DNA of 64,000 nucleotides from the NCBI RefSeq assembly GCF_000377405.1, contig NZ_KB905020.1, positions 186,001 to 250,000 on the forward strand, given 5' to 3'. Under the pieces are notes generated by a model, which was not told the DNA's origin, made no database searches, and saw only the letters and a list, made by a program, of their open reading frames with translations. The translations under genes were made by a program, and so were the position numbers. Within the stretch, counting starts at the first letter, position 1, and each line of letters begins with the position of its first letter. The DNA is from Thioalkalivibrio sp. ALE31 (GTDB taxonomy: Bacteria > Pseudomonadota > Gammaproteobacteria > Ectothiorhodospirales > Ectothiorhodospiraceae). Shown here piece after piece: positions 28,668 to 31,421 of the stretch.

Positions 28668-30026
28668 TCACGCGTGCACGGCCTTCTCGATCCCCTCGGT
28701 CATCACCTCCACCAGAAAGTCGATCTGGTCTTCGGTGATGACATACGGCGGCATCAGGTAGCTCACGTTCCCCAGCGGTCGCAGCAAGGCACCGCGCGTC
28801 AGTCCGTGGCGATAGATGTGCAGGCCGCGGCGTTCCTGCCACGGGTATGGCGTACGGGTCGCCTTGTCCTGCACCAGTTCCACCGCCGCGATCATGCCGT
28901 GCTGGCGCACGTCGGCGACGTGCGGATGCGCCGTCAGAGGTTCCAGTCGTTTCGCGATATGTTTGGCAAGTTGACGGTTTTGCTCGATAACCGGATCGGC
29001 CTGGAAGATGTCGAGTGTCGCCAGTGCCGCCCTGCACGCCAGCGGATTCCCGGTGTAGGAATGCGAGTGAAGGAACATGTTGAGCTTTTCGTAATCGTCG
29101 TAGAACGCCTGGTAGATCGAGTCCGTGGTGAGCACCGCGGCCATGGGCAGATAGCCGGCGGTCAGCCCCTTCGACAGGCACAGGAAATCGGGCGTGATCG
29201 GCCCCTGTTCGCAGGCGAACAGGGTGCCGGTGCGGCCAAAGCCCACGGCAATCTCGTCGGCGATCAGGTGCACGCCGTGGCGGTCGCAGGCCGCGCGCAA
29301 CAGGCGCAAATACTCCGGATCGTACATGCGCATATGGCCGGCGCATTGCACCAGCGGCTCGATGATGACCGCGGCCACCTCGTCGCCATGTGCCGCCAGG
29401 GCTTCCTCCATGTGAGCGAACTGCCGCCGGGCGACGTCGGCACAGCTCTCGCCCGCCTCGCGCTCGAAGCAGTCGGGCGCCGGGACAGTGATTACGTCCA
29501 GCATCAGCGGTTCGTAGGTGGCGCTGTACAGCGGCACGTCACTGACCGAAAGCGCCCCCAGTGTCTCGCCGTGATAGCTGTTGGAGAGCCGGATGAATCG
29601 GGTCTTCCGCGGGCGGCCGACGTTGCGCCAATAATGGAAGCTCATCTTCAGCGCGACCTCGACCCCAGCGCTGCCATTGTCCGCGAGGAAGACCCGCTCC
29701 AGGCCGTCCGGGGTGATGTCGATCAGGCGCTCGCAGAGTTCGACCACCGGTTCGTGGGTGCAGCCCGCAAGGATCACGTGCTCCAGCCGGTCCAGCTGGT
29801 CCTTGACCGCATCGCCGATTCGCGGATTGGCATGACCGAAGAGATTGACCCACCAGGAACTGATCGCGTCCAGGTAGCGGTTGCCGTCGAAGTCGTACAA
29901 CCAGACGCCCTCCCCGCGCTGGATCGGAAGCAGCGGGAGGGTCCCCTCCTCGCCGTAGTCCTTCATCTGGGTACAGGGATGCCAGAGGGCGCGCAGGTCA
30001 CGCTGCTTCAGGGTGTCGTTGTCCAT
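28668..30026 (-). CDS. bioA: Adenosylmethionine-8-amino-7-oxononanoate aminotransferase
   Basis: A 452-aa class III PLP aminotransferase that makes 7,8-diaminopelargonate with S-adenosylmethionine as amino donor in biotin synthesis. HPCTQMKDY at the N-terminus and SSWWVNLFGHANPRI are BioA hallmarks. The PLP lysine is Lys286 (LSKGLTAGYLP). The ATG at 30026 fits the family. It is separated from the other bio genes, none of which lies in the window, and is 24 bases downstream of a KamA-family gene with which it is probably co-transcribed. Confidence 0.94.
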   Translation of the reverse strand: MDNDTLKQRDLRALWHPCTQMKDYGEEGTLPLLPIQRGEGVWLYDFDGNRYLDAISSWWVNLFGHANPRIGDAVKDQLDRLEHVILAGCTHEPVVELCERLIDITPDGLERVFLADNGSAGVEVALKMSFHYWRNVGRPRKTRFIRLSNSYHGETLGALSVSDVPLYSATYEPLMLDVITVPAPDCFEREAGESCADVARRQFAHMEEALAAHGDEVAAVIIEPLVQCAGHMRMYDPEYLRLLRAACDRHGVHLIADEIAVGFGRTGTLFACEQGPITPDFLCLSKGLTAGYLPMAAVLTTDSIYQAFYDDYEKLNMFLHSHSYTGNPLACRAALATLDIFQADPVIEQNRQLAKHIAKRLEPLTAHPHVADVRQHGMIAAVELVQDKATRTPYPWQERRGLHIYRHGLTRGALLRPLGNVSYLMPPYVITEDQIDFLVEVMTEGIEKAVHA

Positions 30027-30050
30027 GGGGCTCTTGCTGTCAGGGGGCGG

Positions 30051-31421
30051 TTACTCGCCGGATGCGGCCTTGATCGCGGCCAGCTCATCCTCGAAGAAGA
30101 AGCGCTCTTCGCCGAAGGCCGGTTGCAACTGGTCCAGCCAGGTGGCCTGGTCGTCATAGCGCGCGAAGAAGGGCCGCTGTACCCAGTCGGGATTGCGCGC
30201 CTGAATAAACCGCAGCACGAATACCTTCTCGCCCTGGATCTCCGCCACGCCCTGGATCTCGACCTTGCCGGGTTCCGCGCTCATCGAGGGGCCCCGGGCG
30301 GTGCGACCCAGTCCGGAAACCTGCTGCATGGCCTCGCGATAGATCTCCCAGGCCCGGGCCAGTGGCACCTCGAAATAGCGTCGGGCGCCGGTGTCGCGCT
30401 CGACGAACATGTAGTACGGGATGATCCCCAGGCGGACCTCTTCTCGCCACAGATCCGCCCATGCGCCCGGGTCATCGTTGATGTGCCGCAGCAACGGACC
30501 CTGGGCACGAATCTCGGCGCCGGTATCCCGGACGCGGCGGATCGCCTCGCGCGCGATCGGGGTACGCAGCTCGTGGGGATGGTTGTAATGGGCCATCAGC
30601 GCCACGTGTTTCCCCGCCTCCGCGAGTCGCTCCAGGAGATGCAGGAGCTCGTCCGCGTCACTGTCCGTGACAAAGCGATAGGGCCAGAACGTCAGGGCCT
30701 TGGTGCCGATACGGACGGTCTGGACATGGGCCAGATCCGGCTCCAGCAATCCCTCCAGGTAGGCCTTCAGGTGCTTGGTTTTCATCACCAGCGGGTCGCC
30801 GCCCGTCATCAGCAGGTCGCTGATCTCCGTGTGGCTGCGCAGGTAGTCGTGCAGCAATCCGGCATCGGTACTGGCGATCCGCAGTTCCTTGTCTCCGACA
30901 AACTGGGCCCAGCGAAAGCAGAAGGTGCAATAGCTGTGGCAGGTCTGCCCCTGTCCGGGGAAGAACAGGACCGTCTCGCGGTACTTGTGCTGCAGCCCGG
31001 TGATCACCTCGCCGGCTTCCTCGCTGGGCCGGTTGAGTTCCAGCTGGCCGGCGGGATGCGGGTTCAGGTCCTCGCGCAGTTCACGCGCCAGGGCCTGGAT
31101 CTCGCCACGTGATGCACCCTTGCGGTGGAGATCGGCCATACGCTCGAAGGCCCCCGGTTCCAGCATCTCCCGCTGCGGGAAGGTCAGCTGGAACATCGGG
31201 TCGTCGGGGACGCGATCCCAGTCGATCAGTTCCTCGATCACGTAGTCGTTGACCCGGAACGGCAGCACGCTGGCGACCACGCGCATTTCGAACCGCATGG
31301 CCTCCGGCAGCGCCGCGACCGCCGGAATACGATCGAGCGAACGGTCATTGAAGACCCGGAATTCGCGCGACTCGACGGCCCCGAGCTCGGGGTCCCGATA
31401 GAACTGGACAACGGAATTCAT
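30051..31421 (-). CDS. KamA-family radical SAM protein
   Basis: A 456-aa relative of lysine 2,3-aminomutase. The radical SAM cluster motif is Cys161-x3-Cys165-x2-Cys168 (CHSYCTFC) and the SAM-contacting GGDP is at 207-210. Unlike classical KamA (CxxxCxxC then a glycine-rich PLP-lysine segment near PGGGGK), the C-terminal part reads RGPSMSAEPGKVEI, so PLP binding is uncertain. It is also longer than EpmB. Function is unknown: beta-lysine formation is one possibility. CAGGAGGGA strongly supports the ATG at 31421. It is upstream of bioA and divergent from the class V aminotransferase-fold gene across a 289-base gap in which I see no clear promoter. Confidence 0.85.
   Translation of the reverse strand: MNSVVQFYRDPELGAVESREFRVFNDRSLDRIPAVAALPEAMRFEMRVVASVLPFRVNDYVIEELIDWDRVPDDPMFQLTFPQREMLEPGAFERMADLHRKGASRGEIQALARELREDLNPHPAGQLELNRPSEEAGEVITGLQHKYRETVLFFPGQGQTCHSYCTFCFRWAQFVGDKELRIASTDAGLLHDYLRSHTEISDLLMTGGDPLVMKTKHLKAYLEGLLEPDLAHVQTVRIGTKALTFWPYRFVTDSDADELLHLLERLAEAGKHVALMAHYNHPHELRTPIAREAIRRVRDTGAEIRAQGPLLRHINDDPGAWADLWREEVRLGIIPYYMFVERDTGARRYFEVPLARAWEIYREAMQQVSGLGRTARGPSMSAEPGKVEIQGVAEIQGEKVFVLRFIQARNPDWVQRPFFARYDDQATWLDQLQPAFGEERFFFEDELAAIKAASGE

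Follow-up and report, generated by a model that had tools for sequence, protein, structure and literature searches.

The window, that is, the whole 64,000-nucleotide stretch of DNA that was analysed, comes from a haloalkaliphilic sulfur bacterium and is placed in the Thioalkalivibrio group by its nearest named relatives. At positions 30051-31421 of its minus strand lies a kamA-like gene for a putative glutamate 2,3-aminomutase of 456 amino acids, identified by its open reading frame, motifs, profile scores, structural model and position in a tree. The gene starts with an ATG at 31421, with an AGGAGG ribosome-binding site in front of it. Downstream on the same strand, after a gap of 24 nt, follows bioA (28668..30026), encoding an adenosylmethionine-8-amino-7-oxononanoate transaminase of 452 amino acids that scores 826.3 bits with NCBIfam PRK07030, over a cut-off of 729. 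As the first-pass annotation had stated, this bioA stands alone; bioB is located on a separate contig (C2). Divergent from kamA, a SufS/CsdA-like gene of the class V aminotransferase fold, with scores under all cut-offs, occupies 31588..32844 of the plus strand; the TTG is probably not its true start, which would lie farther downstream, near 31708. Within its own family this class V gene adjoins bioA with or without kamA. An antisense open reading frame of 842 amino acids (28584-31112, plus strand) spans both kamA and bioA, and is a GC-rich shadow that misleads a simple choice of reading frames. No Rfam family reached its gathering threshold in the interval 26500-33500 of the window.

The KamA protein of the window is matched by all six KamA-type NCBIfam models, every time with a score under the cut-off. 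The superfamily model TIGR00238 gives 139.2 bits against a curated cut-off of 199.2, which marks the protein as related but outside the curated subfamily. Scores are 117.7 bits for the AblA_like_2 model (cut-off 396.25), 115.2 for the AblA model TIGR03820 (525.4), 103 for the EpmB model TIGR03821 (369.3), 92.7 for the arginine aminomutase model (600) and 90.9 for the clostridial glutamate 2,3-aminomutase model TIGR04368 (650), in agreement with the earlier description of the protein as a diverged KamA relative of uncertain reaction. A second KamA-superfamily protein of the same genome (L010) is EpmB, with 442.5 bits over the cut-off of 369.3. The only solved structure matched by the KamA sequence at E 0.001 is that of lysine 2,3-aminomutase (LAM; 2a5h). 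A structure prediction, which the first-pass annotation had proposed, was made with AlphaFold2 from 47 sequences and reached a pLDDT of 85.8 and a pTM of 0.87, with residues 158-182 around the cluster poorly modelled. It has a LAM-like fold: 2a5h_A is the best structural match (Z = 32.2 over 335 residues, 3.4 Å, 22% identity), the next-best match has a Z-score of 14.9, and a Foldseek comparison with 2a5h_A returned an E-value of 1.9e-16. Judged by sequence and predicted fold, the gene is a divergent member of the radical SAM/PLP 2,3-aminomutase (KamA) superfamily, with predicted catalytic function.

Homologues were matched at 119 loci, and the 117 rows longer than 380 amino acids were aligned, leaving out L048 and L080; at least three pairs of identical contigs (L015/L049, L024/L053 and L027/L051) are counted twice in this alignment. 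Since 82 columns are invariant across the 117 homologues, the kamA reading frame is not a chance one. The radical SAM cluster motif C161-x3-C165-x2-C168 (CHSYCTFC; 30918..30941, minus strand), the cysteines of which the first-pass annotation had noticed, is invariant in all rows, in a region of low model confidence. Equally invariant is R170 (30912..30914, minus strand), the counterpart of LAM R134, which we take to hold the α-carboxylate of the substrate. The position of LAM D293 is occupied by R342 (30396..30398, minus strand) in 117 of 117 rows, a pairing given by an ungapped phmmer alignment to the region of 2a5h residues 287-316, with which a local profile-profile alignment (hhalign) is concordant. 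Further on, the segment R376GPSMSAEPGK386 (30264..30296, minus strand) places S379 (116/117) at LAM D330 and K386 (117/117) at LAM K337, presumably the PLP lysine; R376 and S381 are invariant as well. These last two pairings come from MAFFT and global hhalign, with low hhalign column confidence there, and the local hhalign ends at residue 373, short of K386; in MAFFT, K386 lines up with the GK that other KamA rows have. The 2a5h sequence was compared over residues 96-316. At the position of C268, assumed to be one of the zinc cysteines of LAM, the window protein carries D317, and the clade mostly D or N.

K386 is thus very likely the PLP lysine, a residue that had been placed in doubt because of the unusual C-terminal stretch. 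The stretch is indeed present and differs from that of LAM; it is not an aberrant end, however, as the lysine it contains is the one that aligns with the PLP lysine, and what differs is the substrate pocket. D293 and D330 are, as we assume, the aspartates that bind the ε-amino group of lysine in LAM. In the alignments both are gone from the window protein, the first replaced by an invariant arginine, with the pairing of S379 and D330 less certain than that of R342 and D293. Clostridial glutamate aminomutase presumably carries Lys332 and Asn369 at these two positions, and the replacement by R342 and S379 would therefore suit an anionic side chain.

In a tree of 64 rows, rooted at the midpoint and including no clostridial glutamate aminomutase, the window protein groups with plasmid rows and with 25 further rows from Proteobacteria, Binatia and viruses. 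The resulting clade of 33 rows sits on a long branch with a support of 100/100, apart from the 31 other KamA rows. The window KamA is accordingly assigned to a clade distinct from AblA and EpmB, and by score alone from the clostridial glutamate aminomutase. Members occur in at least 591 stretches of GTDB species genomes, the best 80 of which were retained as named loci. In a sample of 398 genomes from the phylum, 14 have a member (E 1e-40), one at just 36% identity. Closer to the window, 19 of the 30 genomes from its own genus carry the gene, as do all 7 further genomes of the family and 3 of 21 further ones of the class. It is present in 76 of 81 genomes of the genus of G228, which by inference is Marinobacter, the G228 row grouping with Marinobacter rows in the tree and the match in genome G521 having coordinates identical to those of the Marinobacter salinexigens locus L055. 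It is also present in 33 of 46 genomes of the family of G247. Thauera, Azoarcus, Nitrosomonas and Binatia also contain members, and many plasmid copies are annotated as ‘lysine 2,3-aminomutase’.

Among plasmids, 50 records match the clade KamA, 20 of them covering at least 80%. Eight regions were opened, one of which has no annotation; of the seven annotated loci, four (L130, L132, L134 and L136) are clearly of NRPS/PKS type, L129 is weakly so, and L131 and L133 are not. On a plasmid of Streptomyces NBC_00334 (L134), kamA is accompanied by type I PKS genes and by genes for a proline iminopeptidase, a PLP enzyme and an AMP ligase. The best solved relative of the ligase is 5jjq (618.7 bits; next 579.7). 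PMC11253843 identifies 5jjq as IdnL1, the 3-aminobutyrate ligase of incednine, and L134 is named here, from its neighbour genes, as a putative incednine-like macrolactam cluster. According to PMC11284099, feeding and disruption of idnL4 point to conversion of glutamate into β-glutamate by IdnL4 in incednine biosynthesis, from where IdnL3 carries the pathway on to 3-aminobutyrate; IdnL4 gave no activity in vitro. PMC10662134 likewise names IdnL4 a glutamate-2,3-aminomutase. The KamA of L134 is 49% identical to that of the window, and the two have the motifs CH.YCTYCFRW, FVERDTG and RG(P)VMS..PGK in common; position 379 is S or V within the clade. In Amycolatopsis (L131), kamA lies beside a PLP enzyme that is 49% identical to the PLP enzyme of L134. 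In Binatia loci an IdnL3-like PLP enzyme (34-35% identity) is encoded some 3.5 kb upstream of kamA, separated from it by another gene; considered as a counterpart of IdnL3, it was judged an ordinary aminotransferase. On the Rhodococcus DK17 plasmid pDK3 (L132, 5020-19988), a clade kamA is part of an uncharacterised cluster with a carrier protein, an AMP ligase, luciferase-like and SidA-type monooxygenases, a tRNA-ligase-like gene and ATP-grasp genes.

A different neighbourhood is seen in Halomonadaceae, where a TAXI binding-protein gene lies 51-368 nt downstream of kamA at 15 of 16 loci; the sixteenth contig stops about 1.1 kb past kamA. A TRAP permease is present at 14 of the 16 and a UspA gene at 13. 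At the example locus L097 (9552-13743), which combines kamA with a glutamate-type TAXI-TRAP transporter and the UspA gene, the binding protein scores 384 bits with 8s4j (VcGluP). PMC11574862 describes VcGluP as a glutamate-specific TAXI-TRAP binding protein, which also binds glutamine and pyroglutamate. When the residues were read by hand (chain number + 28), Y45, S75, Q93, E125 and Y200 of VcGluP were found to be retained in L097, with the changes M201 to V, S40 to G and D157 to Q. All six motif patterns occur in 13 of the 15 TAXI binding proteins, while L094 does not have that of Q93 and L124 does not have that of S75. This neighbour is restricted to Halomonadaceae, and elsewhere no neighbour family recurred broadly: clustering of neighbouring open reading frames returned none besides kamA common to more than 5 labels. 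The clustering used a crude choice of reading frames, in which antisense frames won at some loci and the window kamA was dropped, and its kamA cluster comprises 83 loci.

The clade gene is also carried by seven IMG/VR contigs. In six of six environmental phage contigs, one of which holds the end of kamA only, a gap of about 25 nt separates kamA from the gene for a T4-type terminase large subunit directly downstream, and holin and tail genes precede kamA where the contig reaches. The example is L187, with kamA at 10001-11266 and the terminase at 11294-12850 (the same contig as L034 and L186); L183, L184, L032, L185 and L189 are further ones. Scores are 354.3 bits for the terminase, which Terminase_6N also matched, and 95.7 bits for the holin. 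On L035 (3454-4797, 4889-5800), clade kamA stands beside genes for TFIIB (138.5 bits) and for a virion structural protein (216 bits), a combination that suggests an archaeal virus contig. Among 50,697 GenBank phage records there were 17 matches at 25-31% identity, each spanning at most 63% of the query, and the phage clade kamA was not found in this set.

From the motifs, fold, clade and neighbourhoods we infer that the window KamA is probably a glutamate 2,3-aminomutase converting L-glutamate into β-glutamate (3-aminoglutarate), a reading that we hold with moderate confidence because of the conserved pocket, the clade in common with an incednine-like KamA and the glutamate-type TAXI-TRAP neighbours. 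By analogy with the superfamily, S-adenosylmethionine would be cleaved at the [4Fe-4S] cluster to yield a 5'-deoxyadenosyl radical, which would abstract a β-hydrogen from glutamate in aldimine linkage with PLP (K386). Migration of the amino group from C2 to C3 would follow via an azacyclopropyl radical, and S-adenosylmethionine would be re-formed. R170 is expected to act on the α-carboxylate, and R342, perhaps together with R376, on the γ-carboxylate. In the actinobacterial gene clusters, the β-glutamate formed may feed β-amino-acid building blocks.

The glutamate assignment has to be weighed against other substrates. R342 predicts an anionic group and not a chain length, VcGluP takes glutamine and pyroglutamate besides glutamate (PMC11574862), and position 379 can be S or V, all of which would also fit a 2,3-aminomutase acting on some other small amino acid, acidic or neutral (aspartate-like, α-aminoadipate, glutamine or similar). 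Two lines favour glutamate, namely the precedent of incednine and the glutamate-type transporter, and we regard such a substrate as unlikely. Far less probable is lysine itself, with β-lysine serving as precursor of an osmolyte such as N-ε-acetyl-β-lysine, although the LAM fold, the cysteines and the PLP lysine are the same and many plasmid copies bear the corresponding annotation. The first-pass annotation had raised a β-lysine osmolyte for a halophile while remarking that no ablB is near. The latter remark holds, the best ablB match in the genome scoring 20.3 bits against a cut-off of 205.1 with none near kamA. This, together with the AblA score of 115.2 bits against 525.4 and R342 and S379 in place of D293 and D330, led us to reject β-lysine.

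A role in biotin metabolism, or in shuttling amino groups with BioA, had been suggested from the position of kamA on the same strand as bioA, 24 nt away. We followed the neighbourhoods of bioA and the class V gene by tblastn, along the lines of a survey also proposed at first pass. At loci of the own family the arrangement is common, with bioA within about 1.5 kb of kamA in 18 of 20, and with the class V gene present in all 20; in G009 and G011, bioA is about 3.2 kb away. Across the 80 named loci (the best of at least 591 stretches), however, bioA with at least 72% identity lies near kamA in just 4, and 5 have the class V gene there; all of these are in Thioalkalivibrio or Ectothiorhodospira, and two Marinobacter loci have class III relatives at 30-32% identity and nothing closer to bioA. 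All 13 further congeners contain bioA. Eleven of these have no kamA; among the eleven, the class V gene directly adjoins bioA in 10, and the contig of the remaining one ends too soon. In G027 (L176, 1365-1475), a 37-residue remnant of the KamA C-terminus is left between the class V gene and bioA. It fits the footprint of a loss of kamA, an assembly fault being also possible, and would therefore imply that kamA can be lost with bioA retained. The linkage is not conserved beyond the family and looks like an incidental, locally inherited neighbourhood, so that a biotin or amino-shuttle function is very improbable and was rejected. This outcome and the conserved PLP lysine are among the findings that the first-pass annotation, which also listed lysine 2,3-aminomutase activity, had named as refuting its reading. 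Modification of EF-P or another protein-bound lysine, to which the presence of a KamA-superfamily EpmB in the same genome might point, is hardly credible and was likewise rejected, as the genome has its own EpmB (L010) and the window KamA scores 103 bits with the EpmB model and differs in its pocket.

If glutamate 2,3-aminomutase is the correct assignment, β-glutamate might serve as a compatible solute in halophiles, a proposal that we make tentatively and with some doubt. It is plausible because methanogens and Nocardiopsis halophila are known to use β-glutamate as an osmolyte (PMC1224877) and because eam genes are at times under Na+ riboswitches (PMC9337991). PMC1224877 also refers to older NMR evidence ruling out that β-glutamate in methanogens is made by a glutamate aminomutase. 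Members from Thauera, Azoarcus, Nitrosomonas and Binatia make an exclusively osmotic role less likely, the gene being carried by non-halophiles. A correlation with ectoine had no power, ectoine synthase occurring in just 1 of 37 family genomes. The observations could be brought together in a still more speculative proposal, somewhat unlikely to hold as a whole, of a widespread, uncurated clade of glutamate 2,3-aminomutases. Its product would be an overlooked solute of halophiles, with a near-core gene in Marinobacter, and the gene would be horizontally shared with antibiotic clusters and an auxiliary gene of T4-type phages and of the archaeal-virus-like contig, where part of the host glutamate would be turned into metabolically inert β-glutamate during infection. 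Should the glutamate assignment be true, one clade would join the absent in vitro proof for IdnL4, a possible enzymatic source of β-glutamate in halophilic proteobacteria and a glutamate-acting phage gene. Annotations would be corrected, many copies being now labelled lysine 2,3-aminomutase, and the enzymes of halophiles would offer new candidates for the assay in which IdnL4 failed.

Compared with known systems, the window KamA has its superfamily and predicted reaction type in common with EpmB but differs in score (103 against 369.3 bits), the genome having a separate EpmB. With LAM (AblA/KamA, 2A5H) it shares the fold, the cysteine motif, the PLP lysine and the α-carboxylate arginine, whereas the side-chain aspartates are replaced, the zinc ligand C268 has become D317 and the N-terminal part is divergent. 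The clostridial glutamate 2,3-aminomutase belongs to the same superfamily and presumably also has a basic residue (Lys332) at the D293 position; the window protein scores 90.9 against 650 bits with its model and, going by score, represents a separate clade. From IdnL4 it differs in context, the window kamA lying in a core-metabolism setting with no PKS, IdnL1-like or IdnL3-like neighbour. Its likeness to IdnL4 runs through the KamA of the putative incednine-like L134, which falls into the same clade as the window KamA and carries the same motifs.
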